DNA of 64,000 nucleotides, from contig NC_087377.1 in assembly GCF_963675165.1 (NCBI RefSeq), forward strand, positions 6,651,122-6,715,121, given 5' to 3'. The first letter of the stretch is position 1. The number at the start of each line of letters is the position of its first letter. The position numbers and the translations under genes are program-made. The notes under the pieces are model-generated. The model worked only from the letters and a program-made list of their open reading frames with translations, had not been told where the DNA came from and did no database searches. Positions 1 through 56,649 of the stretch are shown in pieces. This DNA comes from Halichondria panicea. Lineage: Eukaryota; Porifera; Demospongiae; Suberitida; Halichondriidae.

Positions 1-300
1 TGTGGTTCCCCTGGCCAATCCTAGCAATTTTTCACATTGCAAATGTTTTTCTAGTCGGATGTATATAGATTAATTATGATGTTGTACATCGCAAAACAGC
101 AATGTATCTGTGAAGCCATTTAGCTGGAACATTGTAAACTCTACAATTAACCTCTTAGCTCTCTACATAACAGTTAGACACGGTGTCTATGGGATTTAGG
201 CTTGACTATACAATACAACAAGTGTATTTTGCTTGACAATGGGATACCAAGTAAGTTGTAGGACTGAGTTGTCTCTAAAATAACACTAAAATAATGCTAA

Positions 301-461
301 GTCGCCAACCAGAGGAGGTACGACAGGGGCGGAGCAGCTCAAGCAATTAGCCTTTGATTGAGCAATAATTATCCGCCCAAGTCGTATGTTTTTGCTGAGA
401 GTAATCAGAGGCTAATTACTTTAGCTGCACCTCGCCTGTCGTACCTACTCTGGTCGCCAAC
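301..461. mobile_element. Mutator-like MITE with 9-bp TSD (copy A)
   Basis: Element 310-452 has inverted ends, CAGAGGAGGTACGACAGG on the left and CCTGTCGTACCTACTCTG on the right, with longer imperfect arms. It is flanked by the 9-base direct repeat GTCGCCAAC (301-309 and 453-461). A related unfilled sequence lies near 16893-16917, where the same flank runs straight into TAGGCCTGG. A 9-base duplication suggests a Mutator-like transposase; no transposase is encoded. Confidence 0.8.
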
Positions 462-869
462 TAGGCCTGCATGCATGGTAGAGATTGTAAATGGGAATGG
501 TTTCAGATTAAACTAATTCCAATGATTTCTCTTGCCGAAATCACAAAAATAGCTCCGTGTTATCTTGAAGCTAGCTAACTATTATAGGTAGCTAGGTATT
601 AGATCTAGGTGGTAGCTATGAATTGCAAGTTGTGTCAAACAAAGTTGTGTAAGAAGGCCTCCTCCAATAAGCATCTTTACCAGGCCTAGTTGGCGATGTA
701 TAGCTAGCGAGACAACAAGGCTAGTTGTAGGTATACTAAGTCCCATAGTATACCTCCTTTGAGCCCATATACATGTATTCCCATGTAGATTCCCATCTAA
801 ATGCACGATAATGAAACCCCTAGCTAACAGCATCATTTTTATTCTTTAATGACATTACTATACCATACA

Positions 870-1100
870 GTGGGAAATTTTCGTGAGGTGCAATTTTTCG
901 AGGGCAGACATGCAGAAGACATGAAAATTCAAACTGAGATAAATTCCCATGGCACCGGTATTTCACATGCAAAGCTATTGGTGGGTGTGGTTTCCAGGTA
1001 TTGAACGCGAATAGTTATTAGAACCCACGAACATTTCTGCTGAGGGCTCTGGAACCAAATAGCGAAAATTTGCACCGGTGAAAAAGTGCCACTATACAAT
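870..1100. mobile_element. Degenerate inverted-repeat element
   Basis: The left part (near 871-900) and the right part (near 1064-1096) are imperfect inverted complements, with TTTTCG and GTGCAAATTTTCG-like motifs and ACTATA-type ends resembling the CCGTATA family elsewhere in the window. Present in both duplication copies (B about 37660-37900). Assignment to that family is inference from the ends. Confidence 0.45.
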
Positions 1101-1311
1101 GATTACTATATAATTATAATTATGTAATGTTAGGTAACTTACTTGTATGCTTGATACAAGCCTTGTGAAATGCTACCATAATTTCCACTAGTCGACCATA
1201 AGTGGCTGTCGAATTCGATGGATTGTCCAAATCAATTCTTCAATTTCATTAGAGCAGTGTGAAATTTGGCTTGGGTACTGTTGAAGAGTCTCGGATCGTT
1301 ATCGATTTCGT

Positions 1312-1447
1312 CTAACCTATAGCATGACTTAGGCCTAGCCTGTACTTGTATTCGTTGTATCCAGCAATCTCGGGGTAGACAACTGGAGAAGAGCTTCTTC
1401 CGAGCACTCTTGACTCAACTGAGCTGCAGTTGCTGTATTCTGACGAA
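1312..1447 (-). CDS. Candidate 3' exon of the Ig-type gene (uncertain)
   Basis: On the minus strand a good acceptor (pyrimidine-rich, ending TTTACAG at 1448-1449) is followed by an open frame ending at TAG (1312-1314). In the favoured frame it reads as a polar tail rich in tyrosines (VVYPEIAGYNEYKYR), as in the cytoplasmic part of a receptor. Another frame is also open for most of the length, and I could not make phases agree with the candidate exon at about 1560-1615, so frame and existence are uncertain. The copy B sequence is identical here and cannot help choose. Confidence 0.25.
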
Positions 1448-1790
1448 CTGTAAACATAGAAATTCCTTGTTAAAGAAATAAATCACATTATTTCGTACTG
1501 TCATGTGTAGTATAGCTATATACTGTTAAATGTACACCAAACAATATAATGATCGACACCTGACTCAGTGGTTGTGTGGAGGACTTCATGAGCCAGTTCA
1601 GTCGCTGCATTATCTGTGAGAATGATGACATAACAGCATATACATGAGACCCATGCACTTACACAATTGCAGAATCAATGTAGGCTAGCTATGTAAGTTC
1701 TTAATAAGCCAGAACTGATCGAAAAAAGTTTATGGGGGAACTCCATGAAAATACGGCCCACATCATAGGAAAAGTAGCTAGATAACTCAC

Positions 1791-1919
1791 TTATCTCATC
1801 TCTATAGAGAGCTCTGTAGACAATGAGGACCACTTTCCTAGCAGCGGCATTCTTCATCTCACACTGGTAGTGACCAAAGTCCTCCTCACTCACACTCTGG
1901 ACGCTCAGAGTGTTGGATA
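1791..1919 (-). CDS. Ig-like domain exon, C-terminal half (copy A)
   Basis: A 43-codon minus-strand exon between a CAG acceptor (plus 1920-1921) and a GTGAGT donor (plus 1785-1790). It encodes NTLSVQSVSEEDFGHYQCE followed by VVLIVYRA. The D-x-G-x-Y-x-C pattern is the hallmark of strands E-F of an immunoglobulin domain, and the hydrophobic run after it fits strand G. The N-terminal half of the domain was not found within the window with confidence. It is probably one exon of a cell-surface or secreted Ig protein transcribed leftwards. The exon is identical in copy B. Confidence 0.5.
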
Positions 1920-2637
1920 CTGGATTTCACTTTGCTCCAATCATCGAGGAAAACTGCTCCACAGAATTTCTATAAACTTGAGCACATACATGCTTGCTTT
2001 TTGACCGACACAATCTATAGATGAAAAGACAATCTAGATGAATTAGATCAATTGTGACATACGCATAATTATTTCTGGGCCTAACGCTATACATATACAT
2101 TTGTTGTCTTTTGACCTCTGAGATCAAAGGAATAGAAGTGCCAGTATAATTATGGCGTTTTGCACTGGGGATATTCATGCACTCCTGGCGGCACTCATAG
2201 CCATGTAATAACTATTGTAAAAACTGAGACCCTACACACCTTAAGTGTGGTTGGGAAAGGTGAGTGGAAACTGTCATTCTCGTGATGTGCTCTGACACTA
2301 TAAGGAATATCAATTGAAACTCTCAGGATACTCTAGGGCCCATGTGCCAATAAGGACCATCTCCTAGAACTACTGTAAAAAAAATTGTGGAAAGCACAAA
2401 AATGTGCAGGTGTTAAAGTTGTAAATGTGGTTTGTCAAGTGCAAGCACGCAATACGGTGCACAAAGCACACAATACATACAGTGTTCAGTTGTAAATGGG
2501 TTTGGATAACAGCTTCTAATCCAATAGGTGTTCGCTACCTGTAACATGGATATCTACGGATTTGTTACCCTCGTGCTGTTGTGTGTATTCCCTCGGGTTA
2601 CAAATCCAATACACCCTTGATATCCATGGTACAACTA
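1920..2637. other. Non-coding stretch with a foldback
   Basis: No supported exon. A foldback is visible at about 2544-2636: the arms contain ATGGATATC / GATATCCAT and GATTTGTTACCC / GGGTTACAAATC. The segment near 2098-2142 recurs at about 57780-57830, outside the duplication. Confidence 0.5.
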
Positions 2638-2815
2638 CCGTATAGCGGATATATTTCGAGGGTATAAATGTTTGTGGTTTTCGCTGATCAAGGTTCTACC
2701 GCGAACAATTATACCCACAAATTTAATATCACATGCATGCATGCTGCATAAAAGCTGCTATTCCGTGAAAACATTTCTAACAGTCAATTCCGCAAAAGTT
2801 TATACCCTCGAAATA
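2638..2815. mobile_element. CCGTATA-family MITE with TTTCGAGGGTATAAATG arms
   Basis: Starts after TA (2636-2637) with CCGTATAGCGG, then TTTCGAGGGTATAAATGTT; the right arm AAGTTTATACCCTCGAAAT closes near 2815 but the terminal CTATACGG is missing, so the right end is truncated. The same family occurs at about 24330-24488, 26970-27098, 58780-58953, 60368-60546 and 61640-61810. TA flanks point to a Tc1/mariner-type mobilising enzyme. Confidence 0.6.
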
Positions 2816-3036
2816 GAAATATACCTGTATATTTATTACTTGTTTAGTATAGTTAGAAAAGGTAAGTGGAAACTGTCATTCTCGTGTTATTGTGATTTGT
2901 ACTGTTTACTTTTGCTACCATTTAGATTAGCATGCATGGCTATACATCAGACAAACATACAAAAAACAGGCACACTATTATAACAGTTGACAAACTATCA
3001 GTTGGCAGCTACATAAACTAACCAGTACAACAAAGT

Positions 3037-4335
3037 TTATTTTGTAGAAAGCAGTGACTCAGATATCGAAAAGAAGATTCCTGAAAGAAGTAATATGACG
3101 TAAAGTGGGTTGCCGAGAGAAATTGGTATGTTTATTCCGGGTATGCGAGGCAAGAAATCGAAGTCCTCTTCCCATTCCACTGCCAGTCGTCGAGCAAGCG
3201 TTGAACGATTTGGGTTATCCTGAAACTTCTTCAGTTGGTTTTCTCTCAACTTGTTAAAGAACTCTTGATGATAGGTGTTCATTTTCCTAGCACAAAGATA
3301 AGGAATAAGCAAGGTGATGAACTGGTTAAGGTTATAAAGTAGATAGAATATTTGTGGAATGTCTGCAATTGGTGTGTCGCCATCACTATCAGCTCTCCAA
3401 GGACGAAGAATATTGTACGTTTTCAGAGAAGTTGCTACAAGATAGATAATCCAAGGAACAATAAACCAAGTTTGAAATAGCTCTTGAATAGCCTCAACTT
3501 TCTTTCCAATCTCTGTGTAGTTTTTGTCATACAATTTCCAGTCCTTGCTTACTAAATTCCAATCAGCAAGAGCTTGCTCCTCGGTGAGCTCAGGGGGAGA
3601 GTCCTGAGTTTGTTCCACGGTGGGCTCGGTATGTTTAGAGGAAGAGTTCTGAGTTTGCTTTACAGTGCGCTCGCAGGGAGAGTCATCAAGAGGCCAGATT
3701 TTACTCAAATAAAGTGTAGCGTAAATCATCAATGCCCGGACGATGTAGGCTGATAAGTAACGGAGAAAGTTGAAAGCACAGTAAGTTATGTAAATTTCAT
3801 GGTAGTGCCGAGAGCACTCCAGTGACCGGCTTTCACTATATTTAATTTCTTGAAAGATTCCAAGTCCAGGAATAGCAAACCCGAGTAAAATGTATGGTGC
3901 CAGTATGAGTAATATCACTGGTAGGTAGTAAAATCTTTTGGAAGTTGCTCTAAAGAACACTCTTGAATCAGTATCTTTCTGCTCGAAAAAGAAATGGTAA
4001 AACTGCTTTCCTAGTAGAATGAATTCCAAAAGTCGTAACACGCTTAGAATTGCATAAACAACAGTAGTGAAGATAAAGTCATGGCGAATATCAGCTTCTG
4101 AATTTGTGCTGTTGCTGCTTTTATCGTTGAAATTGCACTTGTTCCATCCTGTAATTCCGTACCGGGTTATTAACAGTAACCCTCTCAAACTGAAGACTAC
4201 CCACACAGCTCCAAACACAAACCAAAAAATTGCTTTCTTGGTTATTAACAGTAACCAACTGAAGACTACCCACACAGCTCCAAACACAAACCAACAAATT
4301 GCTTTCTTGGCACATGTACTACACTTCTGTGCCAT
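3037..4335 (-). CDS. Multi-pass membrane protein, 432 aa (copy A)
   Basis: Uninterrupted frame from an ATG at 4335 to the stop at 3037. I do not recognise a named family. About eight hydrophobic segments are visible (near residues 12-31, 35-56, 88-110, 134-160, 182-210, 290-310, 335-355, 408-428). A polar acidic loop around 220-280 carries a short repeat (TVKQTQNSSSKHTE / TVEQTQDSPPELTE). The first two hydrophobic segments are an internal duplication of about 23 residues (KKAICWFVFGAVWVVFS / KKAIFWFVFGAVWVVFS), nearly identical at DNA level. Downstream it is clearly, though distantly, related to the plus-strand neighbour: both share IFT-VVY near the first third, WFI-PWI, a YN-NQ motif and DF-PRI before the last membrane segment. 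The two genes are divergently arranged, so a shared promoter region is possible. Copy B differs at residue 131 (T to N). Confidence 0.75.
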   Translation of the reverse strand: MAQKCSTCAKKAICWFVFGAVWVVFSWLLLITKKAIFWFVFGAVWVVFSLRGLLLITRYGITGWNKCNFNDKSSNSTNSEADIRHDFIFTTVVYAILSVLRLLEFILLGKQFYHFFFEQKDTDSRVFFRATSKRFYYLPVILLILAPYILLGFAIPGLGIFQEIKYSESRSLECSRHYHEIYITYCAFNFLRYLSAYIVRALMIYATLYLSKIWPLDDSPCERTVKQTQNSSSKHTEPTVEQTQDSPPELTEEQALADWNLVSKDWKLYDKNYTEIGKKVEAIQELFQTWFIVPWIIYLVATSLKTYNILRPWRADSDGDTPIADIPQIFYLLYNLNQFITLLIPYLCARKMNTYHQEFFNKLRENQLKKFQDNPNRSTLARRLAVEWEEDFDFLPRIPGINIPISLGNPLYVILLLSGIFFSISESLLSTK

Positions 4336-4621
4336 ATTCTAAGTTTAACACTGCTTAATTAAAATAACTATAGACTCTATAAAATTGTTATCCTATAATC
4401 GCATCTATCTAGAATTTTAATCTAAGGTTTGTCAGGGACTTTACCAGGGACTTCCCAAAAGGTTTGTCATGCAGGACTTCATCAGGGACTTTACTGGCCT
4501 TAATTACCAGGACTTGACTCCATTCAATGACCACATGCTGATTAAAGTTCTATGCTGTACATCTATGCCTATGGTCTAACTCTAACCCTATTCTTTATAG
4601 ATTGATCTATAGGCTTTTAAG
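4336..4621. promoter_or_regulatory. Intergenic region of a divergent gene pair
   Basis: About 290 bases separate the ATG of the minus-strand membrane protein gene from the proposed first exon of its plus-strand relative. Short direct repeats of the type GTTTGTCA and CAGGGACTT occur several times between 4424 and 4496. No TATA box can be assigned confidently in such AT-rich DNA. A bidirectional promoter is inferred from geometry only. Confidence 0.35.
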
Positions 4622-6270
4622 ATGGTACTTAGCGGTGATCAAGATAAAGCTCAGGTCAGTAGTACATATACATAGACTAAAGACATTTAATATAAGATGC
4701 ATGTATACGTATCTATAATTATAATATGTGACACAATGGATGTACTGTCACATGCATGCAGTGCTGGTAGAAGGGATCATGAGGCTTATACGGCACCAGA
4801 TGTGCAAACGCTCTAAAATTTATAACTTTTCCTTTGCTAATCCAAACCCCTCCCTTCACACATACATCTGGTGCCGTATATACCACTTGAACTGGTAGAA
4901 GTAGCATTCCTGAACAATTGCCAGAAAGTATACTTTATGGTCATAACATTTCTCCTCAATTATTAAAGTCCACTAATGGATCTACCAGGTTTCTAGTGAT
5001 CTATTAAGAGCTTATAGGCCTCGAATCCAGGCCGATTAAAATACATATTTTAATCGGTAAAGCCTATTGATTTCACAGCATACAATTATTTACTGACACG
5101 TTGTACTTTTACATGCAGGCCGGCAAGAAGTTGCTATTTATACTGCTAGCTGTAGTAGTTGAAGTGACATTGCTGATCAAATTCCCGCTCTTTGTTCTAC
5201 GACAGCTGTCAACAACAGTTTTCCTGAAACAAGCCTGTCCATCAGTTAATGCAAGCCAAGTTGGCCAAGAATACATATTCACAATGGTAGTTTATAGCGG
5301 CTTGTACATTGGTCGCTGGTTTGAAACATTTGTGCTTCACATTCATATCTACAAATTTATCTTTTGTCAAAGCAACATAACTTTTGGGTCATTCTTAAAA
5401 AACTGCAAAAACGGGAGCTGTAAAGCAAACATTACACTGTTTATAACAGCTTTTGTACTTTCCTTATCATCTATAGCTATACCGATTCTTGGGACTATCC
5501 TTGAAGTAAAAAATGGGGAAGATTCTTCTTCAAGTTGTAACAGCTATATTTACGAACATCATTTGATCTATTGGGGTCTGGACATAATACGTTACATACA
5601 TGATGTTGTTATTCGCTTATTGCTACTTGTATCAGTGGTTGGCATAAAAGTGATTTGGTCTGAAGGCAAGGAAAAGGCAGGCAAGAAACTAGAATCTGAA
5701 ACAAGAGAGCCCACCACTTATCTAGAATATTCGCTGCGAGATTGTGATGTCACCAACCAATATAATAAAACGAAATTGGAAGACTACGATCAAAAAGGGA
5801 GATGTGTAAAGCAAGTTGTTGACATTTTTGAAGTGTGGTTTATTATCCCTTGGATACTGTTTTACATTAGTGCATCGCTAGAAACAGATCAACTGCTGCT
5901 GTCGTGGAGGAATGGATCGAGTGGAAGTGATCGTCACTATGATTTCTCCGAGATTACGTTAATGGTGTACAATTTTAACCAAATAATCTTCCTTACATTG
6001 GCATACATCGGCTCACAGTTAATAAATTGTGAACACAAGGAATATCTTAAACATTCACGATATGAACGACGTAACAAGCCCCATACAGCAAGTATTCAGG
6101 CTCACGCTAGGCTTACAAAGTTAGAGAAAGATGACCACTACGATTTTGTGCCACGAATCTGGGGCTCTAGTATCAAGGTCCATTTAGACAGCCCAATATA
6201 TGTATTGTTGTTGCTCCTTGGTATTTTGTTCACATTAATGAATGGCTTGATCTCTGAAGAGAATAACTAA
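4622..6270 (+). CDS. Multi-pass membrane protein, two exons, about 394 aa (copy A)
   Basis: Proposed exons 4622-4654 (ATG, MVLSGDQDKAQ, then donor GTCAGT) and 5119-6270 (after acceptor ACATGCAG). The join keeps the frame; without it the first in-frame ATG would be 5113, inside the acceptor, giving 385 aa. Hydrophobic segments appear near the start (LLFILLAVVVEVTLLIKF) and at about residues 60-85, 110-135, 160-185, 250-268, 290-308 and 365-388. It shares WFIIPWI, YNFNQI and YDFVPRI with the 432-aa neighbour, so the two are old paralogues facing away from each other. Several N-x-S/T sites and cysteine pairs lie in the first half, as expected for exposed loops. Function unknown; the family looks lineage-specific, which only a database search could confirm. 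Confidence 0.7.
4786..4882. repeat. Inverted repeat in intron 1
   Basis: TATACGGCACCAGATGTG (from 4788) is complementary to CATCTGGTGCCGTATA (4865-4880), separated by about 60 bases. It lies in the proposed first intron of the plus-strand membrane protein gene and could be a small MITE relic. Identical in copy B. Confidence 0.6.
5032..5057. repeat. Perfect 12-bp-arm palindrome
   Basis: CCGATTAAAATA, a CA spacer, then TATTTTAATCGG; flanking AGGC and GCCT extend the symmetry imperfectly. It sits about 60 bases before the acceptor of exon 2 of the membrane protein gene, so it could fold near the branch site. Also present in copy B. Confidence 0.7.
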
Positions 6271-6320
6271 TCCATTTGCTTTTGTTTAGCTGTTAAGATT
6301 TGCTATAGTATAAGTTTTTG

Positions 6321-6340
6321 CAGGAGCACATGTGCTCCTG
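6321..6340. repeat. Perfect 20-bp palindrome after the stop codon
   Basis: CAGGAGCACATGTGCTCCTG reads the same on both strands and lies 51 bases after the stop of the plus-strand membrane protein gene, followed by GTTTTTG. In RNA it would form a stem with almost no loop. It may be a 3' UTR protein site, a processing element or chance. Conserved at 43116-43135 in copy B, within the near-identical block, so conservation carries little weight. Confidence 0.6.
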
Positions 6341-8100
6341 GTTTTTGTCATTGAGTAGTATATGATTTATTTTTTGCAGGATCGATAATTCACAATTAAA
6401 TGAAGACAGACTCATAGAGTCTTAAAAGTTTTGATATTGTCAGCATAGTTGGCTATTGCTAGCGTTCTAGCCTGAAAGTGTTCACTATTACATTCAGCAT
6501 TAGCTCTATACTGATGCAACATTTGCTTGTAAATGTAGTTTGACCTGTCGAGCGTGTCTGCTAAAACCCTCACGAATCAATTTTTCATGCAGACATGATT
6601 TAATTCCACTACAAGCAAATGTTCCAAATTGAGAAGTAATGCCTGTTGTTGAACTTCCATCGAGCTCATTTTATCAACCTCGAACTTTTATGGCTATGTC
6701 AGAATTCTGATGTGACCAATTAAATCAAGAATTTACAGAGAGCGACAAAAAGTGGCAATTGGTAGTGCTAGTCAGCCTATAACTATGGCTACTGTTAGAC
6801 TGCAGTACGCCTGTGCAACACTTTTTTTGTTCCTTCCAGAAGCCAAATAAAATTCATAGCTGCATAAACGCTTCTTGCAAACGTTTGCGATTGACCTATG
6901 CATGCGTTGCACAATAATTGGGGTATGACACTGATGTAATGACAATTAACATTCCATTGTCCATTGTGCAAAGACCTTCAGACTAAAGTGCTTGCCCCTA
7001 GAGGGCGGCTGATTCATATGAGATTTAGAGATACTCATGCCAGTTATATTAAATCTCACCAGTTTTAGAAGTGTATCCATGCAGGGTTAAGGTGTTAAGG
7101 GTAGTGTATCTCGTAGTGTCTCAGCACAGAGGGGGAGGAGGGAGGACACTTGGTAACCACACCCACTCACACCACTCAGCTCAGGAAAAGGGCACTGCAT
7201 AGAGGCAAGGTTATCATACTTGACAAATTGATGCTGTCACACAATTCATTTTACCTCACACGGCCAGGGCACATTCATAATTATTATAATCAAATTCTGC
7301 CTAACACTTGTAGCCACTAGGACTGCACACCTTATATAATTACCAAGAGTCCATGATAAAAGAGAGAGATAGAGTATATATCATATTCCTATATAGATTC
7401 ACTGTTTGTTACAACAATTAATTGATATCACATTCTTTATGATGATAAGACGACCATAGATACCATAATTATAGTATCTATGAGACGACCATGACTGATA
7501 GCCTCATTCGCAGCGTCTCCTTTTTCTGTTCTTTGACACACAGGTCAATAAGATAAAATACGGTAAGAATTGGACAGTTCTTTCTTTCTTTCTTTGTTCC
7601 TTCAATTCTTACCTGTGTGCCCAACTGAACAGAAAAAGGAGAGGTTCTGATATACAGTGTGTAACACTGTTTGCTTCACTTAAAACACATCACTTAATTA
7701 ATAAAGGATGCATCCTTGCAGTTTATACCCAATAATTATATAGAGATTATACAGTCAGCACATATCTATGGTATACGGGTCAGAGAGCCGGATTAGCAAG
7801 AGTTTCCTACTGTATTCAGGGCTTGTACATGAAACCGCGGTGTTTACTCCAGGAAACTAGAGCACTGAAGTGTTAACCCTCTGCTGTTGACATGAATAAA
7901 TAGATCTATAAAAAGCAGAGGAGTAATTAAGAAGCAACAACTACAATTCTACCGTTTTAATAGTGACCTATATATATATATTGCTATAGGCAACATGTAA
8001 GTTTAGTTTTTGCTCGTTTTTATACGACAACAAAGCTTTTAACAATCGAAATCTGCCACTTTTATAACTTGTTGTGTGGAGGCTACACTGTTAAAACAGG
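6341..8100. other. Intergenic DNA without a recognised gene
   Basis: No convincing exon on either strand. Contents: a foldback at 7516-7642 (described separately), a small hairpin at about 7444-7490 (ATAGATACCATA / TATAGTATCTAT), a CTTT microsatellite near 7580-7593 and a TA run near 7970. Near 7344-7372 there is a motif (AAGAGTCCATGATAAAAGAG) that recurs as the arm of the foldback element at 30685-30919. Confidence 0.5.
7516..7642. repeat. Foldback element
   Basis: TCTCCTTTTTCTGTTC (7516-7531) pairs with GAACAGAAAAAGGAGA (7627-7642), and inside this ACACAGGT pairs with ACCTGTGT and AAGAATTG with CAATTCTT. It resembles a short non-autonomous inverted-repeat transposon. Same in copy B. Confidence 0.6.
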
Positions 8101-8235
8101 GGTGTATATGTACACCCCAAAATGGGTACCACATACGCTTTAAAAACTACCCCCTAGGGTGTAAACTACATACTCAATATTTACACCTTTAAGGTGTATA
8201 TATCTCTGTATAAGGTGTACTATAGGGTGTATAGT
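8101..8235. repeat. Cluster of GGTGTATA-type motifs in both orientations
   Basis: Variants of GGGTGTAT, AGGTGTAT and their complements TACACCC / TACACCTT occur at least seven times, so the segment can fold several ways. No coding frame. Role unknown. Confidence 0.45.
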
Positions 8236-9526
8236 ATGCATATAACCTGCATTCACATGATCACAGCTGTATCAAGTTAAAACACATCCACAAAACATCA
8301 TAGCAGCACTAAAATGAGATTATAATTATACATGTGCCAAAGGGTTCAATTTTGTTCGTTGAGTCCAAAGAATACACTTAGCTCGCACGTTGGCTCTTGT
8401 TCAACATCACATAGAAAATACAGTCTGCACTGGTATGGCAAACAACAAGGTAGGTGCTCCCATTCGTTTTTCATTCACAAAGATCGTCTGAATTCTGCAC
8501 AGAAAACAAAACACAAAGTCACAAGCATACAGTACATGGAGAATGTTAATTTTCACCGAACAAACTTTTGACGCATTCACATAATTATTATAAGAGCAAC
8601 ACATGCACAACCTTAAGGATCTACCTTATATACATTCGTACATGTACAAAATAGATAAGTCTTCAAAAACTCTTTAAATATTTGGATTGACGGGATACCT
8701 ATGTGCGCATACATAGAAAAGTACAGTCAGCTATTTTATAAAAGCCAAATTGAAGCACGTAATAGCATTGTGCTAACCTTGATATCATCTGAAGAACCCT
8801 CGCTATCAATTTTTTCCCTTGTCGCCATCTCTAACCTGAATATGCAATAATCCATGAGTCCCAGTTCTCCATTAATGATTGATTGGACACTCACATCTTT
8901 TTCAATACTGACGATTGTCTTGAACTCGGTTCAAAACTATTGAATATAGGCCTGCATAGAGGAATCAGATGTGTACAGATCAGATAAACTTGCTAACGAC
9001 AGGTAAGAATAGTCAAAGTCATAGATGGAAAATTAGTTTAGAACTTACCACTTCGTGAAGCTTCAAAGAAGGACAATTTATTCATAAGATCTGAGACCGC
9101 AACATAGATAGTTTGGTATAAGCTTCAATTTTGCTTACACCTCCTCTGCAATGCTCTAGTTTTTAGTACTGTTTCGGTTAGGGAGAGATTTGAAGAAGAT
9201 CTAACGGCTAAAGTCCAAAGTTACAACAGAGTAAGAATTGTTAAGAAAATTTTCTCCAGAAAATTAGTTCCATTGCAATTGATTGTTATTTTTTTACAAT
9301 CACCCCCATTTTAGTGTACATGTAAATGGATTTCTCACTATAAACATTAATTTTTGGGGAAGTATATTTGAATGAAAGCACCGCGGGTGCTGATGCCGCG
9401 GTGGAGGTGCCAAAGCTACATAACATAAAACTACTAATAGCTAGCTTTTATCATAGAACTGTTCTATCCATGCTTTTATACACACATTTATCATGATCAA
9501 CATTTTTGCATGCAATCACAGGGAAA
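8236..9526. other. Intergenic DNA, no supported gene
   Basis: Short open frames exist but show no domain, splice logic or sequence pattern of a protein. The part from about 9140 onward (including GCACCGCGGGTGCTGATGCC near 9378) recurs diverged at 21480-21790, partly inverted, so it is old repeat DNA. Confidence 0.45.
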
Positions 9527-9735
9527 CTCAAATAGTGGGTAATGATCGACCATGATTGTTGTTAAAAACGATCGATGCCAAAAGTTCAAGTCTAAATTAA
9601 TGGCTGCAAGTCAGCAGAGCCTTGTAGCTCTTTTCTCACTCTTGAAGCTACCAATAGCTAGCGTTATAGTGCAGAGCTAACTACTCAGTACAGTAGTAAC
9701 ACTCGGTGAACAAGACTCTTCTGCAATGGCATTAT
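9527..9735. repeat. Dispersed repeat R, 5' part (copy A)
   Basis: Contains GGGAAACTCAAATAGTGGGT followed by AGCAGAGCCTTGTAGCTCTT and ends before the insertion at 9736. Related copies: 21862-22140, 28058-28400 and 46322-46765. At 46535 and near 28300 the sequence continues directly into TTCTAAGTA-type sequence, so those copies show the uninterrupted state. Confidence 0.7.
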
Positions 9736-10587
9736 TATGCCTCGAGGCGTAGCCGCACGAGGGATACGGTAAAGCTGACTGTGTGTGTGTCTGTCTGTGT
9801 GTGTGTGTGTGTATTCCAGCTATAACTGCTCAACGGTTACAATGCGACGAAAACTAACAGCTTCTATAGGCTTCTAGCCACGTTCTCTTGGATTTTGATT
9901 CGTGGATTAGCAAACTAAAGCTTCTTTCTCGAGTTATGGCTAGTTTGACTCACATTGAAGGCTGTTGCAGTCTCTTCAGAATCTTTCATAGCATCATCTG
10001 TCCGCACAAACTTTCTATTCAACATATGAGTTAGCCTTGCACTAAAGCGCTAGCTTTTTGTTAGCTACAATACTCAGAAAATATCTGTTAAAACAGCTAG
10101 CTAGCAGTACAGTAGCCATTTGTAAAATTGATCTCTTTGGACACACCCTTTAATTATTCCTGTGGATGTAATGCGCATGCGCGCTCATTCCCCATGTGTG
10201 AGAAAATAATATCCAAGATCCAGATCCAGATCCTCCTGGCAGAATCATCTTTGTCTTGAGGGCCTGGTAAGCCACAAAACACTACCATATAACAATATAG
10301 ATAACAATATGCATGTACACAGGTCTTTTCTTCTTAGATATTATATACACTGAACTACAGATCCTGGAAGAATCAATTTTCTTCTTTCTTGATGTCCTGG
10401 TAAGCCACATAATACAAAAAATAATAACTTACAATAGATGCATGTAAATAAGTCTTTTCTTCTCAGTGACTTTATATAGATAAGCTAACTTTAATATAAA
10501 ATTCATTATAGATAACACTCTAATACTTTTGAGCGAAAGCAAAAACATGGCGAGAGGCATTAGCACAGCGCCAGCTTGAACACTAGT
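9736..10587. mobile_element. 852-bp insertion unique to copy A
   Basis: Copy B and the related repeat at about 28300 lack this segment. It is bounded by TTAT on both sides (9732-9735 and 10588-10591). The left part (9736-9970) is an inverted copy of the tail of repeat R (TATGCCTCG... TG microsatellite ... CTCGAGTTATGGC); the middle at 10205-10470 holds two diverged copies of a 160-base unit (CCTGGTAAGCCAC at both). There are no obvious terminal inverted repeats and no coding frame. Insertion rather than deletion in B is inferred from the third, unfilled copy. Confidence 0.75.
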
Positions 10588-10591
10588 TTAT

Positions 10592-10730
10592 TCTAAGTAA
10601 GCAAAACTAAGCATAACTCGAGAACAAAGTTTTATTTTGCAAATCCACAAATAGCATGCCAAGAAAACATGACTAGAAGCCTATAGAAACTCTTACTTGC
10701 ACTTCATTGATCCTTGAGCAGCTGAAATAG

Positions 10731-10784
<54 letters not shown>

Positions 10785-10825
10785 ACCGTATACCTCGCTT
10801 GCGCATGCACACCGAGGCATAATAA
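10592..10825 (+). repeat. Dispersed repeat R, 3' part with CA microsatellite
   Basis: Runs from CATAACTCGAGAAC through ACTAGAAGCCTATAGAAAC and a CA repeat (10733-10776) to CTCGCTTGCGCATGC and CGAGGCATAAT. Related copies at about 28300-28405, 31645-31810, 31940-32125 and 46535-46765. The fixed 3' end and internal microsatellite recall a SINE-like or other non-autonomous family; no coding frame. Confidence 0.65.
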
Positions 10826-11029
10826 TGTTAAACCTTATTCATTCACCTATATAATGGTATCAGCACAACAATTGATGTTCCTATCTTAAGGTACGTACAA
10901 CTACTCAAACATTTGTGGTATCAGTTTACTTGCTATAGACTGGATGCACTATACACAGATGTGCTTTTAGTAAAGTGTTCAGACAGATTCTTGTAAGCGA
11001 TAGTTATTGAGATAATCGCATGTTGTCCT

Positions 11030-11640
11030 ATTATTCACTGTGATTCGTACAGCGATTAATCGCGTATATCAATAATTACACGTCGTTAAGGCAGTAATTG
11101 CATGTCGTCATTAACGACGTGCAATTACTGCCTTGACGACCGCACGTTCGAATAACAGCCGCGGCTAATTTTTTCACTGAAACTGCAGCTAAAAATGTCC
11201 TTAAAACTCCATCACGAACGATTAACAATCAATAGTATGGCTACTCGTGCAATAAGGGATTAATAGCATGAGTAACAAGCAATGGCAAGGATACTAATTG
11301 CACGAGGCGTACTAATCGTATGATGTGCTATTAGTGACAGGAGAGTGTACAGCAATTAATCCCGTATCACATCCGATCCAGTAATTGCACGTTGTCATTG
11401 ACAGCGTGCAATTACCTATCAAGTAATTGCACGCTGTCAATGACAATGTATAGTTTTCGAATAACGGCCACGGCCGAAAATATTAATAAAAACTGCAGAG
11501 AACTTCATGATGCACTCATTAACAAGCACTGGCAAGGTTAATAGAACTCGGCTATGTCTCGTGCAATTAGTATCCTTGCCATTGCTTGTTACTCGTGCTA
11601 TAATAATACCATAAATTATTGCACTCTTAGCGCATACTAG
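11030..11640. mobile_element. Foldback element with GTAATTGCACGTCG arms (copy A)
   Basis: Carries several complementary blocks such as GTCGTTAAGGCAGTAATTGC and GACGTGCAATTACTGCC, then TAAGGGATTAATAGC and GCAATGGCAAGGATACTAAT with inverse partners near 11550-11600. Related shorter copies at 47000-47600 (B), 56650-57010 and 59150-59485 in the opposite orientation. No transposase frame. Likely a foldback-type transposon. Confidence 0.65.
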
Positions 11641-12065
11641 TGATTATCCTTATATGCACCTACCATGTATGGTAAAATTTTGGTCACATGAACGTCTCAG
11701 TGACTCAGGCAAATTTCTTCTTTGTTCCCATTTGACCAGATGTACGTGGCAGTGTTGGCAAGACATGGCAAAATTTTCTATCTTTCCTTCTCGTCCATGA
11801 CAACCGACAACCTGCACCTACATGGGTAGATCTAAGTAAAGGTGGTAAATCTTGATACCAAAATGCCTGACCTCTTTTGCCACAAAGCTCAAAGCTAGAT
11901 TTGGGATAAATGAGCCCCACCCTAGCCCTTCCTCTATCCATCCATTCCAGGTCTAGATGCAAATATTCATTTGTAAAATTGTTGACCATTACCTTTGTTG
12001 CAGTATTTTATGCAATGAAGACTGATGTTGCTATTCTGTTTGTGATTGTTTTTTTCTTAAAACAG

Positions 12066-17980: not shown

Positions 17981-17989
17981 TATATGCAG

Positions 17990-21448: not shown

Positions 21449-21479
21449 AATAAAGTGCTTCTGGACAAAATTTCCTTAG

Positions 21480-38585: not shown

Positions 38586-38714
38586 TTATCTCATCTCTAT
38601 AGAGAGCTCTGTAGACAATGAGGACCACTTTCCTAGCAGCGGCATTCTTCATCTCACACTGGTAGTGACCAAAGTCCTCCTCACTCACACTCTGGACGCT
38701 CAGAGTGTTGGATA
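38586..38714 (-). CDS. Ig-like domain exon, C-terminal half (copy B)
   Basis: Sequence-identical to the exon at 1791-1919, including acceptor and GTGAGT donor. Encodes EEDFGHYQCE with the Ig F-strand cysteine. The candidate tail exon equivalent lies at about 38107-38242. No N-terminal half of the domain is found between this exon and the membrane gene at 39832 either. Confidence 0.5.
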
Positions 38715-41130: not shown

Positions 41131-41416
41131 ATTCTAAGTTTAACACTGCTTAATTAAAATAACTATAGACTCTATAAAATTGTTATCCTATAATCGCATC
41201 TATCTAGAATTTTAATCTAAGGTTTGTCAGGGACTTTACCAGGGACTTCCCAAAAGGTTTGTCATGCAGGACTTCATCAGGGACTTTACTGGCCTTAATT
41301 ACCAGGACTTGACTCCATTCAATGACCACATGCTGATTAAAGTTCTATGCTGTACATCTATGCCTATGGTCTAACTCTAACCCTATTCTTTATAGATTGA
41401 TCTATAGGCTTTTAAG

Positions 41417-46000: not shown

Positions 46001-46534
46001 GGCTAAAGTCCAAAGTTACAACAGAGTAAGAATTGTTAAGAAAATTTTCTCCAGAAAATTAGTTCCATTGCAATTGATTGTTATTTTTTTACAATCACCC
46101 CCATTTTAGTGTACATGTAAATGGATTTCTCACTATAAACATTAATTTTTGGGGAAGTATATTTGAATGAAAGCACCGCGGGTGCTGATGCCGCGGTGGA
46201 GGTGCCAAAGCTACATAACATAAAACTACTAATAGCTAGCTTTTATCATAGAACTGTTCTATCCATGCTTTTATACACACATTTATCATGATCAACATTT
46301 TTGCATGCAATCACAGGGAAACTCAAATAGTGGGTAATGATCGACCATGATTGTTGTTAAAAACGATCGATGCCAAAAGTTCAAGTCTAAATTAATGGCT
46401 GCAAGTCAGCAGAGCCTTGTAGCTCTTTTCTCACTCTTGAAGCTACCAATAGCTAGCGTTATAGTGCAGAGCTAACTACTCAGTACAGTAGTAACACTCG
46501 GTGAACAAGACTCTTCTGCAATGGCATTATTCTA
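43066..46534. other. Intergenic DNA, copy B, no gene
   Basis: Equivalent of 6271-9735, with the same 20-bp palindrome (43116-43135), foldback (44311-44437), GGTGTATA cluster (about 44896-45030) and repeat R start (about 46322). Only one or two substitutions are apparent. At 46532-46535 the TTAT empty site of the copy A insertion is seen. Confidence 0.5.
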
Positions 46535-46669
46535 AGTAAGCAAAACTAAGCATAACTCGAGAACAAAGTTTTATTTTGCAAATCCACAAATAGCATGCCA
46601 AGAAAACATGACTAGAAGCCTATAGAAACTCTTACTTGCACTTCATTGATCCTTGAGCAGCTGAAATAG

Positions 46670-46723
<54 letters not shown>

Positions 46724-46765
46724 ACCGTATACCTCGCTTGCGCATGCACACCGAGGCATAATAAT
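46535..46765 (+). repeat. Dispersed repeat R with uninterrupted junction
   Basis: Continues directly from the 5' part of repeat R, with a CA microsatellite at about 46673-46716 and the CTCGCTTGCGCATGC / CGAGGCATAAT 3' end. Confidence 0.65.
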
Positions 46766-46969
46766 GTTAAACCTTATTCATTCACCTATATAATGGTATC
46801 AGCACAACAATTGATGTTCCTATCTTAAGGTACGTACAACTACTCAAACATTTGTGGTATCAGTTTACTTGCTATAGACTGGATGCACTATACACAGATG
46901 TGCTTTTAGTAAAGTGTTCAGACAGATTCTTGTAAGCGATAGTTATTGAGATAATCGCATGTTGTCCTA

Positions 46970-47590
46970 TTATTCACTGTGATTCGTACAGCGATTAATC
47001 GCGTATATCAATAATTACACGTCGTTAAGGCAGTAATTGCATGTCGTCATTAACGACGTGCAATTACTGCCTTGACGACCGCACGTTCGAATAACAGCCG
47101 CGGCTAATTTTTTCACTGAAACTGCAGCTAAAAATGTCCTTAAAACTCCATCACGAACGATTAACAATCAATAGTATGGCTACTCGTGCAATAAGGGATT
47201 AATAGCACGAGTAACAAGCAATGGCAAGGATACTAATTGCACGAGGCGTACTAATCGTATGATGTGCTATTAGTGACTGGAGAGTGTACAGCAATTAATC
47301 CCGTATTACATCCGGTCCAGTAATTTCACGTCATCATTGACAGCGTGCAATTACCTATCAAGTAATTGCACGCTGTCAATGACAATGTATAGTTTTCGAA
47401 TAACGGCCACGGCCGAAAATATTAATAAAAACTGCAGAGAACTTCATGATGCACTCATTAATAAGCACTGGCAAGGATAATAGCACTCGGCTATGTCTCG
47501 TGCAATTAGTATCCTTGCCATTGCTTGTTACTCGTGCTATAATAATACCATAAATTATTGCACTCTTAGCGCATACTAGTAATTATCCTT
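46970..47590. mobile_element. Foldback element with GTAATTGCACGTCG arms (copy B)
   Basis: Counterpart of 11030-11640. Divergence from A starts to rise inside this element (for example AGCACGAGTAAC here against AGCATGAGTAAC in A), which marks the right end of the near-identical block. Confidence 0.65.
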
Positions 47591-48075: not shown

Positions 48076-51000
48076 GGTCTTGTTAGACCAGAAATAATTG
48101 GTGCAGTTGTCCTACCACATGGTGAGTAGAATATCTAATATCAGTTGTGACAACATTTTATAATCATGACTTTTTTATAAAGCACCGTACCGGTACCGTA
48201 AAAACTCGATTTGAATAGAGGGCACCTTAAATCGAGGTTTTACGGTATACCGCGTACCGTAGTACCTCAAGACTCGATTTAAGGCGACACTTTTTAATCA
48301 CAATTCCAGAGGTCGCTTCTTATAGAAGTTAAAAAATTATTTTGAAGTCCTGGTGTCGCATATTTAGAGAGTTGCGTCTAATTAGAGGTAACTCCACCTA
48401 GTCTATTTGCCTCGATTTCAGGCCGCATAAAGGGTCGTCTTGAATCAAACTCTTACGGTAGATCTACTTGATACAGCGCTAGAACAAAATTCCACTTTCT
48501 GGTGCATTTTTAGAAATCCAAAAATCGCGTTCAATCTGAGCTGGCACTTAATCATGTAGGCACTGCAATCTCTTAGTACGTGTCAAAACACCATGACTGT
48601 GTACATTCCGTCACGCTTTATCAGTCTCACAAACGGTGCCATGTACTGCACGGCCATCATAACATAAATGTCACAGACAGCACACAAAATTTACTAAATC
48701 AGGACACATCGATGTAGTAAAGTGTGAAATCGCTTTAATTAGCGTGAGCCCAATTTTTTTCAGATTTCAACAGCTATAATTATTCAGTCTATATGTAGAC
48801 TTTCACCAAGGTTAGCATTAGATGGGCGTAGCCTGTCCATATACAATGTAGGCTATTGTCAGCTTTCACTTTGTTCAAACGATTGTCATCTACACTGTTG
48901 CAAATCTTTTGTTAATATAGCAGGCTACGGGTAGCTATCAGAATGCTATTAGATGGGCTAGAAACCTTCTATATCTACTTTCTTTAATCCACTTCCGTTT
49001 GTTGTGACGTTATTGTTTTACTGAGCATATACGATGTTATCTAAAGCCCCCAGATATCGGGTGAGATTAGCGCATGCGCAAGATCTGCCTTGTCATGCTT
49101 TTTTATAAGCATCATAATAATTAGCAAACATAGCGCTTTTTAGAAATTGCGTTCAGTCTGAGTTGGCGCTTAAATTATGGTACCGCTGTAATTAGTATCA
49201 GGCGGCAAAATTATACTGCATGCTAAAGGTTTGATGTTGCTGCAAGACTATAGATCTAGATCATGCATGGTAGTCTAGCAGTCTTATACCGTAGTTAGTG
49301 TAAACACAGCACCACTATAATTTTAATGTGAGGTTCTAAAAGAAAAAGAAGAGCCAACTGTTCACAGATACAAATTTTGTGTGGTTCTTATATAAAAAGG
49401 TGTGTTTGTGATGCCAAGGCAATCGCTTTGGAGTTTTTATGAGGATGCATTCAATGCTATAGCTGCAATACTGTACATGTATTACTGTCTAGATGCAACT
49501 GTAAAAACGATCGACCTAGCTGCGAGAGAGATTGTACTTTACTCTAGACTAGCCATAGCTATTATAATTTAAGCGCCAGCTAGGAATGACAATTTTGCGG
49601 GCTAGAAAAAGCTCTTACGCCACTTGAAAGTGTAATGAATTTTTGGAGCGCTGCAATTATAGAAGTCGATTGGCTTCTCGTTCACATGCAGGTGGAATAG
49701 CAGTTGACCCCTCTCATTTTAAAACCACCAACAAGACTTCTCTGGCTCAAGCATGGGAGATTCACAATGCTTGTGTGAAAGTAAGTTTAGAAATTACTAG
49801 ATATTCATCGGTAATTATATAGGGCTCTTAATGTTCGTCAAAGGAAACTATAACCGTATTACTAGAATGTTTTGTGAGCATCAAACATTTACGAATTTTG
49901 CGAGGGTTGATCAATTCGCATCAATAAAATCCGCAAAACCTAAATTATTACTAGTAAATACACACGATCCTTGCCAGAACGCAATAGTTAGATCGCAAAG
50001 GGTCAAATTTTCTGCTAATTTGGCTCATTCACAAAAGTTTTTCACCCGCAAAATATTCTGGTAATACGGTACATAGTATTTAAATGCTGTAATGCTGTAA
50101 TGATGATAACAATAACAATAATTATAATCGTCAACATAACTAAATCTCACCCTGCTGACGTATAATATTTAGGCTGGCAAGCTGACACAGGGGCTAAAGC
50201 CAGACCTCATCCTACTGAGCACCCCTCATGGAGTGGCTGACCAGACTAACTTCCAGTTCTATCTTAACTCAAAGGTACTTCACTAATACAGTTTTTTTCA
50301 TGTACGTAACGAGAGCTTGATGATTCAGTATACAGTGTCAAATTAACTATTTCTCAAATGAAAATCATGAACGATTGGGATTTGTAATCAAACTTTTACT
50401 GTGTTGTATATCAGCTTGTGCACAATTGTTAGGCTGTGCATTTATGGTGTTACACAATGCATTTACAAGTTGTTTTGCCACGTATGTGTGTGTAGGGTTT
50501 TGGGAGTGCCGATACTGACAACTGTGCTTGTCCCCCTTGCTGTTACAACGTCTCTGTTGACTTGGATCAAAATGTCTCCAAGGACCTCGTTATTGAATTG
50601 AAGGTACTTATTTACGACTATCTATAACATCTCCTATCAACAAGGTATCGTTAAGGAGTTTTTATACGCTCAGAATATCAGTATCTTTGATCGTTTAAAC
50701 CCTAAACCTATAATCCATGAAGTCATATTCATTTCTTGGTGCTATAGGCTATGAGTCGTAATGTGAGTGGTCTGGTAGGGTTTGGAGATGCTGTCCCCTT
50801 TCCTCTTGCCTGGGGGGAGGTTATTCCCCTGCACTTCCTGTTGGGTGGAGCCAGAGTGGTGGTGCTCTCTCAGCCCAACAGGAGGTACACGGACAGTGTA
50901 CAAATGATTCCTGAGCTGCTAGAGATGGGTGAGTACGTGACAATGCCTCGATGAGATTCTTAAACATGTTTTCACACTCTATATCCCTACATGATTGTAT

Positions 51001-52202
51001 ATATAGGGACGTCACTGTTCAGTGTACTTGAGTCGTCAAACCTGAAAGTGGTGGTAGCCATCAGTGCTGACCTGGCACATACTCATGACCCCAATGGACC
51101 CTATGGCTATTCAAATGCCTCCCAGCCATTCGATGATGTGAGTATTCTATCATACACTAGCTTTACCTGGTAACTATGCATACTGGTACACCTAAGCACA
51201 CAGAATTTCATTGGATACTTTTTGTGTTTCGCTGCTAACATAACTATGGTACGGCGTAGTCTATTTATTATTTGTTTATTCAGGCCCTCGGAAAGTGGGC
51301 GGAATCGCTTGATTCCCAGGCTCTTTTGCACACTGCTGCTAGTCTGGTGGACAGCGCCTTGTCGTGTGGATTCACTGGTTTGGTTATGCTACACGGACTC
51401 ATGGAAAGCATGTGAGTATAACAGTACCAAGGGTGTATAAAGGAGAAAAGGGCATGTAACAGATGTGAGCAAAAACCAAAGTGGGCGGTGGAAAACGACA
51501 GTAATATCTATTTAGTATATCCTGTCTATATATAATTATGGCTTTTGTTCTTCTTCTTTATACACCCTTGACAGTACATAATTATTTGCTCATTTAATTT
51601 GCATCACTATATACGTGTATAAGGTCAGGGTGTCATACAAGGGGGTGGAGGGATTTGCATTTAGGTACTAGTTGTATGACAAGAACGCGCAAAGGCAACC
51701 CAAAACTCACCAGAATACACCTAAGACTAGCATCACCGACTCAACATTTCCGCATGTCCCCCTGGGTCGGTGATGTTGCACACACTAACAGAGTATCAAA
51801 AATACACCTTAAAATGTTCTGGTGATCGACTTTTAGACACCCCTTTCAAAATTCTTGGATCCACCCCTGCACGTGTCTTTATTTCCCCCTTTACTTCAAA
51901 ATCCTGTATTTTTGGTATGTAACATTGGCTTATGCACCAATCCCACAAACATTATTCCAACTTCGGACAACGTTGAATAAAGTATTTGGAGAAAACCAAT
52001 GCAGTTATAATTATACTATCTATACATTGTAGACTAATTATCGATCTATGTGCATAAACGTTTTTTACACTTAACTTGTACATGCACACACGCTAAAACA
52101 GAGGTTTAAAGTTCTGGACTTCTGAACTATTAGTCAATCACCATCCAAGTTATTATGGTATGATGGTAGCAACATTTCTAAAGTCAGTACTAAATAATTA
52201 GT
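48076..52202 (+). CDS. Extradiol dioxygenase-like protein, LigB/class III type (copy B)
   Basis: Exons 48076-48121, 49692-49780, 50173-50274, 50496-50603, 50748-50928, 51007-51137, 51284-51411 and 52102-52202 (last codons SYYGMMVATFLKSVLNN). All lengths and phases equal copy A. Both histidine motifs (PHGG, STPHG) and the CPPCCYN motif are intact. Visible replacements against A include V for M near the end of the second recognised exon (HNACVK), AD for TD (GFGSADTD), P for H (HTHDPNG), S for R (LVDSALS) and M for I in the last exon. Few replacements and no breaks suggest both copies remain under constraint. Intron 3 carries a MITE (49853-50069) that A lacks, and the last intron lacks the MITE that A has. 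First exon unresolved. Confidence 0.85.
49853..50069. mobile_element. CCGTATTAC MITE in copy B intron only
   Basis: Left end ACCGTATTACTAGAATGTTT and right end AATATTCTGGTAATACGG with TA on both sides (49851-49852, 50070-50071). Copy A has no such element between the matching flanks (near 13886). CGCAAA/TTTGCG-rich arms inside. A separate TA-type family from CCGTATAGCG. Confidence 0.75.
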
Positions 52203-53896: not shown

Positions 53897-54229
53897 TATA
53901 TCCAAATACTAACAACTCGTTGCATGAATGGGCCTGTATAGCCGCCTGTTCAATATTGTTGCACTTTATACATAAAAATACCAAACCCTGTAGATCTACA
54001 TGTGCATGCATGCAGGTAAGCATAATAGCATATAATTATGATTATAGCAACAGTGTCTGCATACCCATGGTTACACAGCATATAATTGTATTCATTGCAT
54101 AGTAGAGTCTATATAGGTGTCCACATAACAGATAAACACTAGTCTTGATAGCTAGTAAATTTTACAATCCTTTCCTAGCACCAACTTTTGTACCGTGACA
54201 CTGCAAATAGAGCAACAACCCTATACAAA

Positions 54230-56203
54230 ATGTCTACCCCTGATGCTGAGGAGGGTCCTACTACTGCAACAACACCCATTGCTGACATCATTTCAAACAT
54301 GAAAGCAAGCAGCGAATGGAGAATCCTTGTGTATGGTGTTAATGAGCCAGATCAACAAGAGGCAAACGAGCACCATATGCATATCCTGAGTGGTATTCTT
54401 GGAAAAGAAATATCTCCTGACGAGCGAACAATTCCAAATTTTGACTTTTCAAGCAATGGTGTTACGGTGACAGTCCATATAGGATCTCACCCTGAATGCA
54501 ACGTATCTCATGACGAAGTTGATTTGATGGTGTACTTCATCCCTGTGAATGGAGATATCGTCGACCATTCCCATGTAGTTAAAATAGGAAAGATCACGAC
54601 TGCACACGGAGCTATGGTTTGGAAGCACTCTGTTATTGTGTTTACTGGTGTTGATGCCACTGCAGACGCGTATGCACTGAAGACTGGAGATGTAGCTACA
54701 CGATTGGAGGGAGTACTTGACTCTTGGAACACTACAGTTCAACAAGCTCTCGACTCAGCAATCGCCAACGAAGTAGGTATCAACTCAAAAGAAGTGTTGA
54801 TACGACCAGCAGGAAGACGAAATCAACTCAATCTACCAAAACCACATACACGATGGTTTTCACTTCTTTGGTTAGGATGCTTTCTGTCATCTAAAGTCAA
54901 CTCGATACCTGCCATTCTAAAGGTGGCTCAAGGCAGGATAGCAAACATCGTGAAGGATAGTGACATCGACCAGTTACAGCTGTTCGAGCAACATATTCAA
55001 GTCAAAGAGAATAGTATACAGCTCCCCCAGAATATGAGAATCGGTCTCGGTTTAGGTGGAAGTTCAGCTATTGCCGGTGCTGCTGCTGTTGGAGCCACAA
55101 TCGGTGCTGTTATTGGTGCATTGGCAATTGGTGTTCCTTCGTTTGGAGTAGCTGCTGGTACTGGGCTTGCACTGGGAGCAGTTATTGGAGGAGGATTAGG
55201 AGCTAGCATTGCAGGAGCTGCTGTGGGTGGGAGATACAAGGCGGCAAAGGATAAGCAGATGGAAGAAATCGATGCTTCTGAGCTGAAGCTCTATTACGCT
55301 GAGCTTTTATCTCGAATTCCAAAAATGAGTGCTTATCTGACAACATGGGCTGAAAAGCAAATCAATTGCAAGATCGTTGTTACTGGTGGGAAAGGTGAAG
55401 GTATTTCCACAGTAACAGCTGCACTGATAGGTAAACCACCCCGAGAAAGTGGCTCAGGTCTTTATCTGCAGCAAGTTATCCGTATGAAAGCAAATCTGCT
55501 CGCTTATGATTTCCAGGGTTTTCCAAAAGTGGGAGACAAGCAACTTAAGGCAAAAGAGCTAGTTGAGTTTCAAAAGAGCAAAAATACTCACCTGCTAGTA
55601 TTTTGTATACCGATAACATCGCCAAAGGAGGATTTTGTGTATTCTCCACACGTCAAGTACTTGGAGCGGCTGTGTGAAGTCAATGACAAGATTCCATGCA
55701 ACACAGTTATTGCTCTCACTCATGCGAATGAGATGAGGGCTGAAATGAACAAGCGAAACGATCTGTCACAAACAAGCCTCCACCAGTTTTTCCATGATGA
55801 GCTCGAAAGCTGGAAGCTGCAAATATCCACGGTATTTGAAAAATACATTCATATCGACAGTGAAATCACAGAGAAAATCCCAGTAATTCCAGTTGGAAAT
55901 TTGGAGCCAGTAATCGATCTTTCCGATGACGAAAATCCCACCCCAGCTACCCAGTACCATTGGCTTTCTGAGATGCTTCTCCACGCAATGCCGGCAACAA
56001 AAGCAGAAGGATTGTCTGCTCTTATCGAAGCTAATCAACAACGAATTAGTAGCAGACTATGTCCTTATCCAGACAATGCTCCCGAACTAATCGTCGAAGC
56101 CAAGTGCTCAATGTTTTCAAAGGCTGGACTACAAGATAAGAAACAGCCAGGAGAGGCGATTGGTATGATCCTAGGAGTTAAAGAACCGGATCAAAACGAG
56201 TAA
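54230..56203 (+). CDS. Tandem pseudo-GTPase-like membrane protein, 657 aa (intact copy)
   Basis: Start chosen at the ATG of 54230, which aligns with the start in copy A; an in-frame ATG-less extension to 54188 exists. Residues about 30-250 resemble a GTPase fold of the AIG1/GIMAP kind (WRILVYGVN strand, VDLMVYFIPV, SVIVFTGVDA in the G4 position) but lack a P-loop. Residues about 272-334 are a glycine/alanine-rich hydrophobic stretch (AIAGAAAVGATIGAVIGALA and ALGAVIGGGLGASIAGAAVG), which could insert in membranes. A second GTPase-like part follows: KIVVTGGKGEGIST (386-394) has I where the P-loop lysine belongs, YDFQGF (D427) fits the G3 D-x-x-G, and ALTHANEM (about 495) stands at G4. The final 100 residues are an acidic linker (DLSDDENPTPATQYHWLSEM) and tail. 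Probably a nucleotide-independent or altered GTPase relative; cellular role unknown. Single exon. Confidence 0.8.
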   Translation: MSTPDAEEGPTTATTPIADIISNMKASSEWRILVYGVNEPDQQEANEHHMHILSGILGKEISPDERTIPNFDFSSNGVTVTVHIGSHPECNVSHDEVDLMVYFIPVNGDIVDHSHVVKIGKITTAHGAMVWKHSVIVFTGVDATADAYALKTGDVATRLEGVLDSWNTTVQQALDSAIANEVGINSKEVLIRPAGRRNQLNLPKPHTRWFSLLWLGCFLSSKVNSIPAILKVAQGRIANIVKDSDIDQLQLFEQHIQVKENSIQLPQNMRIGLGLGGSSAIAGAAAVGATIGAVIGALAIGVPSFGVAAGTGLALGAVIGGGLGASIAGAAVGGRYKAAKDKQMEEIDASELKLYYAELLSRIPKMSAYLTTWAEKQINCKIVVTGGKGEGISTVTAALIGKPPRESGSGLYLQQVIRMKANLLAYDFQGFPKVGDKQLKAKELVEFQKSKNTHLLVFCIPITSPKEDFVYSPHVKYLERLCEVNDKIPCNTVIALTHANEMRAEMNKRNDLSQTSLHQFFHDELESWKLQISTVFEKYIHIDSEITEKIPVIPVGNLEPVIDLSDDENPTPATQYHWLSEMLLHAMPATKAEGLSALIEANQQRISSRLCPYPDNAPELIVEAKCSMFSKAGLQDKKQPGEAIGMILGVKEPDQNE

Positions 56204-56649
56204 ACTGACTGCAGTTTTAGCACAGTTTTAAATAGCACACTATAGTAACTATAACACTATTCCATGCATGCATGAAAACAAACAAACGTATGTATATATG
56301 CGAGTGTAGCTTTAAGTTTATTTGTGCCAACAATCTATAATACAAATCACTATCACAGTTATGTGTGGTTGCTCCTTGACAACCATTAGAGCGTAAAACT
56401 CATAATTATTTATTATGATCATGCTATTCACCCTCTTGCATGTATACCTGTGCATATACCCTATAGACAGACTGAGCACATTGTTATCAAATTGTACAAC
56501 TGTGTATACCTACACAAGCAAGAAACTAAATTATCTTCACATCACGTTTAATCGAATTCATTTACTTGTTTACATCCATTGGTATCGTAACATGATCACC
56601 TCAAAGTATAAATTCTAACTGTATGGGTGCATGGGAGTGTACTACACTG
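56204..56649. other. 3' flank and right border of copy B
   Basis: Similarity to 20316-20640 is patchy (GTGCATATACCC near 56451) and ends at about 56615. No gene. Confidence 0.45.

Follow-up and report, generated by a model that had tools for sequence, protein, structure and literature searches.

The systems closest to the locus described here are families of duplicated sequences in which the copies exchange DNA with one another. In human segmental duplications, putative interlocus gene conversion events are reported to average 6.26 kbp, the top 10% exceeding 14.4 kbp, and conversion is described as repositioning whole genes (PMC10172114). The authors of that study point out that deletion plus duplicative transposition could yield a conversion-like signal. 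In Arabidopsis, the RPP8 family is described as three loci, with a direct tandem pair and exchange among the copies (PMC6771003). Neighbouring similar copies may also be an artefact, the false heterotype duplication, which is given as the main source of false duplications, at 4 to 16% of sequence in previous assemblies (PMC9516828).

The locus that we analyzed shares with the human cases a tract on the scale of several kilobases to >10 kb that lies between diverged paralogues and carries whole genes (PMC10172114), and with RPP8 the three loci, the direct tandem arrangement and the exchange among copies (PMC6771003). It also differs from both. The human events were called across 102 haplotypes (PMC10172114), whereas the tract between our copies A and B is read from one assembly with three copies (A, B and a partial C). 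RPP8 has population data (PMC6771003), whereas the genes here are uncharacterised and the tract includes intergenic DNA. The reading that we favour, with a probability of roughly 70%, is an old, multi-step segmental duplication with three direct and unequal copies that was later patched by interlocus (non-allelic) gene conversion.

The window is the whole stretch of 64,000 nucleotides (C1:6651122-6715121), on an 18.1-Mb contig of a eukaryote genome of 131 Mb in 39 contigs. Its gene content, with GT92, Death domain, dermatopontin and AIG1-family frames, may point to a sponge-like animal. All positions are given in window coordinates, with base 1 at C1:6651122 and values below 1 denoting upstream sequence. 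We added 60 kb of the same contig on either side (184 kb in total); the window and both flanks contain no N bases. After a self-comparison, copies A and B were aligned globally and their divergence was read off in steps of 250 bases. For the left part, the differences were listed individually, and the edges of divergence were placed by a segmentation chosen by BIC.

Self-comparison gave a direct duplication of 60-9736 against 36847-46531 that continues to 20333/56221, with an A/B period of 36.8 kb. The window part of copy A lies at 61-20640 (plus strand), and copy B, from its GT92 gene to just past a 674-codon frame, at 34843-56221 (plus strand). The block has its start about 4.3 kb before the window (at about -4253), together with a second GT92 gene, and -4253 to -2215 is 94.5% identical to 34843-36839. 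A 2.27-kb insertion in A, absent from B, separates this upstream GT92 gene from the part of the block within the window. The earlier note had let the block run from 61 to 20640/56615. Both limits had to be moved, the start to about -4253, with the insertion in A interrupting the homology, and the end to about 20333/56221, after which the homology fades.

A third copy, C, absent from that note, starts at 63638 on the plus strand and is mostly beyond the window: only 63638-64000 falls inside, and the remaining 7.5 kb or so extend downstream as far as 71540. It matches A 12916-20788 with 95.5% identity over 63638-71540. Because copy C begins at the position corresponding to A 12916, it does not cover the tract described below. 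Copies A and B are separated by a spacer of 14,054 bases (20789-34842), which is unrelated to the flanks except for scattered repeats and holds an open frame, TM3. The locus is a small array with patchy exchanges, rather than a pair with a single odd stretch.

The array includes a tract in which A (1289-11268) and B (38084-47207) are nearly identical. Its 9,124 aligned columns contain four substitutions (at A 3944, 5352, 6045 and 6882; 0.04%) and no small indels, plus one insertion of 856 bases in A. The nearest differences that bound it are A 1288, the last before, and A 11269, the first after. To the left (60-1288), 42 of 1198 positions are substituted (3.5%), and to the right (11269-13600), 40 of 2330 (1.7%). 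The segmentation placed its cuts at 1297 and 11252, with 4 differences in 9100 columns inside, 47 in 1325 (3.55%) in the adjoining left segment and 110 in 4600 (2.39%) in the right one. Two short outer segments are higher, at 31/250, where the alignment is partly doubtful, and 20/218. The bounds of about 1288-11268 proposed earlier, with few differences and one insertion between more diverged sides, were recovered both by the alignment in 250-base steps and by the list of differences, and the steps show uneven identity across the block. A contiguous stretch is therefore far more alike than the sequence to its left and right in the same two paralogues, which is the pattern by which interlocus conversion is recognized.

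Chance clustering of substitutions was assessed by shuffling the 245 A/B differences over 17,118 columns (A -4253 to 16440) 2,000 times. None of the 2,000 permutations reached the observed pattern, and this explanation was rejected. Among the shuffles, the fewest differences in any stretch of 9,124 columns was 98, against the 4 observed, and the longest clean run was 858, against 3,530. The tract is real in the assembly and well beyond chance. Near-identity within the tract is equal within and between the two open frames, and on this ground strong coding constraint was also rejected as the cause of the identity.

We also aligned five other pairs, chosen from a longer list of local matches, and none of the five shows a comparable long tract of near-zero divergence. 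An upstream pair differs by 1.0-7.7% in 12 usable 300-base steps, its first four steps (36-65%) being misaligned, and a downstream pair by 4.0-10.3% in eight steps. Three short pairs range from 0 to 18.7% in 150-base steps, with two steps at 0, in two short tandem pairs. There are local tandem duplications with periods of about 1.3 and 2.6 kb at 59490-62066 and 23531-27315, which share repeat sequence. Before the window, between about 21 and 8 kb from its start, lies a further direct duplication, roughly 5 kb in size and with a BLAST identity of 92-96%.

A dispersed repeat overlaps or adjoins the right edge of the tract. The first 300-odd bases to the right of the tract belong to a dispersed repeat family: 11066-11653 has inverted relatives at 56656-56991, and about 11314-11650 has many relatives elsewhere. 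A rearrangement breakpoint could be the alternative for this one edge. The step in divergence persists past the repeat, with 26 substitutions listed at A 12137-13589. A relative of 12217-12900 with 95% identity is found on another contig (C14:2624134-2624805), which makes it probable that a dispersed element forms part of the right side.

The insertion of 856 bases occupies 9732-10587 (plus strand) in A only, has TTAT on both sides and corresponds to an empty site in B. The 2.27-kb insertion of A contains an inverted copy of this element (about -2216 to -1359), which matches it at 99.9% over 858 bases. Both element copies are flanked by TTAT (on the element's strand), they are in opposite orientation, and B has empty sites at both places. 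The tract could in principle reflect a misassembly in which both copies were built, over 10 kb, from reads that belong to one of them. The assembly nevertheless presents two distinct sequences, which differ by four substitutions and by an insertion with a clean empty site, and we regard such an error as very improbable.

Comparison with copy C shows that the nearest relative of A changes along its length. The switch point, located by counts of shared variants, lies at A 13596-13680. Of the variants that A has in common with one other copy, 24 to the left of this point are shared with B and 6 with C; to the right, 9 are shared with B and 63 with C. This test used 102 sites up to A 16300, and sites common to B and C against A were set aside. 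The chi-square of the switch is 44.1, against a maximum of 18.2 in 2,000 permutations (0/2,000). To the right of the switch, a second tract of low divergence, this one between A and C, spans A 13965-18134, with 27 differences in 4150 columns (0.65%) between segments of 43/1000 and 57/2150. In steps, A/B divergence is 0.7-7.0% at 13.9-16.2 kb and 3.8-17.4% at 18.1-20.4 kb, and A/C divergence in the same steps is 0.7-1.8% and 1.6-4.1%; over about 16.5-18 kb of A, B is not truly alignable.

Up to A 16222, there are about 26 sites at which B and C agree against A. At A 14763-15062 (B about 50900-51197, C about 65449-65746), B equals C (0/298) and A differs by two. Sites of this type are at odds with one clean switch and suggest small exchanges in addition to the A/B and A/C ones. 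Among the larger outer segments, divergence is 2.0-3.6% for A/B and 2.65-4.3% for A/C, and short segments reach 9.2, 12.4 and 13.5%. As expected around an interlocus conversion, the outer parts thus keep an older and different relationship, being 2-4% diverged, with the nearest relative switching at about 13.6 kb.

Such a hybrid structure is also what one or more unequal crossovers between misaligned copies could produce, the tract then being the remnant of a younger exchange. The copies are direct and close, A looks like a hybrid of B on the left and C on the right with one main switch point, and the larger outer segments show similar A/B and A/C divergence, as if A had been made in one event. 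An unequal crossover is, however, expected to involve the whole 36.8-kb period including the spacer, whereas the spacers are non-homologous and only 10 kb are near-identical. We therefore consider this explanation of the tract unlikely, if the least unlikely of the alternatives to conversion, and a crossover may still be the origin of copy A, though not of the tract. A single simple tandem duplication was rejected, since near-identity extends over 10 of the 36.8 kb and the spacers are non-homologous.

The flanks bear on whether A and B are two haplotypes of one locus assembled in tandem, with the tract marking where the alleles hardly differ. The 2-4% divergence of the sides, with its indels and insertions, would fit alleles of a very polymorphic species. 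Were A and B alleles, the DNA leading into the two copies should be alike, and so should the DNA that follows each of them. For the first comparison, 1,166 of the 14,054 spacer bases (8%) match the 56 kb upstream of A, in 13 pieces, the seven longest being 74-80% identical and scattered. For the second, 1,737 of the 14,054 (12%) match the region between B and C, in 16 pieces, and the seven longest are again scattered, at 74-85% identity. Apart from scattered repeats, the two copies thus have unrelated rather than allelic flanks. Like a false heterotype duplication as described in PMC9516828, A and B are neighbouring similar copies in one assembly; unlike it, they have no gap between them and their flanks are non-homologous. 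Of the signs of false duplication that this paper lists, the analysis covered the gap, which is absent. The more distant third copy and the absence of N in the 184 kb also speak against haplotypes, and we judge this explanation to be improbable, somewhat more so than unequal crossover. Assembly error in general is unlikely.

The earlier note had offered gene conversion and tandem haplotypes as the two possible causes. Gene conversion is the one that gained, from the sharp edges of the tract and from the change, within A, of the copy to which it is closest, and tandem haplotypes lost ground to the non-homologous flanks and the lack of N.

The sequence downstream of A was also compared with that downstream of C. 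Matches cover 3,597 bases, and the single clear gene-sized match is TM3 (24703-25910 against 76057-77298, 91%). TM3 itself occupies 24833-26005 in the spacer, and its relative follows copy C. The spacer also contains a frame with a Death domain (PF00531) at 30193-30645 (3e-05; 24.5 bits against a cut-off of 22.6).

Two open frames, TM1 and TM2, lie inside the near-identical tract in divergent orientation. In copy A, TM1 (3037-4338, minus strand) is an uninterrupted frame of 433 codons with seven hydrophobic stretches, and TM2 (5071-6270, plus strand) is an uninterrupted frame of 399 codons with six, as counted by a simple hydropathy scan. In copy B, TM1 (39832-41133, minus strand) differs from its counterpart by one residue, and TM2 (41866-43065, plus strand) encodes the same protein. 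TM1 and TM2 are about 30% identical to each other in a two-row alignment, and neither matches a Pfam family above its cut-off. Searched against the whole genome, the TM2 protein hit its own two copies, which are identical, both TM1 copies (about 30%) and, on C15, a pair of remote relatives (23-24%), with no third close copy found. Near the start of TM1, both copies carry a 75-base direct repeat (4165-4310 and 40960-41105).

The other genes of the array lie outside the tract. Copy B starts with a GT92 gene (34824-36215, plus strand; PF01697, 1.8e-23), whose partner is a frame in the flank upstream of A, at about -4275 to -2896. The two frames have 465 and 463 codons and are 96% identical. Towards the other end of the copies lies a gene that we tentatively call GTPase-like from its sequence. 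Its frame has 674 codons in B (54179-56203, plus strand), the longest of the three copies and the only full one; in both A and C it is disrupted by frameshifting indels. In A the frame ends early, after 468 codons (18254-19660, plus strand), with frameshifting indels relative to B, and as a compared region the gene extends over 18254-20320. The gene has no Pfam match above cut-off, its AIG1 match reaching E 0.21 and 11.3 bits against a cut-off of 27. An AIG1-family GTPase frame (PF04548, 1.1e-15) lies about 10 kb beyond copy C, and a dermatopontin frame is also present in the flanks.

The TM1/TM2 pair is near-identical in A and B, while the neighbouring, tentatively GTPase-like gene outside the tract is broken in A and C and whole only in B. 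One may ask whether homogenisation of the tract is recurrent or favoured by selection; we consider this doubtful.

Gene conversion is supported because the tract has sharp edges and because the nearest relative switches inside A, and, given the human figures, a tract of 10 kb is within the known sizes of conversion events (PMC10172114). Under our preferred reading, copies A, B and the partial C would have arisen by old, multi-step segmental duplication. An exchange between A and C, either older or partial, would have affected about 4 kb. The youngest and largest visible event would be the copying of about 10 kb between A and B, including the TM1/TM2 pair, which could have run in either direction, from A to B or from B to A. 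After this event, A would have gained the 856-base element, and the four point changes would have arisen in either copy. We infer a non-crossover strand exchange, or break-induced copying with the neighbouring copy as template, as the origin of the tract, and the same holds for the order of these events.

The mechanism is already known, and the event is of an ordinary kind, although the case is unusually clear. The locus is a clean example of a long tract exchanged between duplicates, with a relative age that follows from the contrast of about 0.04% with 2-4%. A third copy close by and the flanking sequence are of help in separating exchange from assembly error without reads. Identity between duplicates, as the tract illustrates, is not readable as the age of the duplication.
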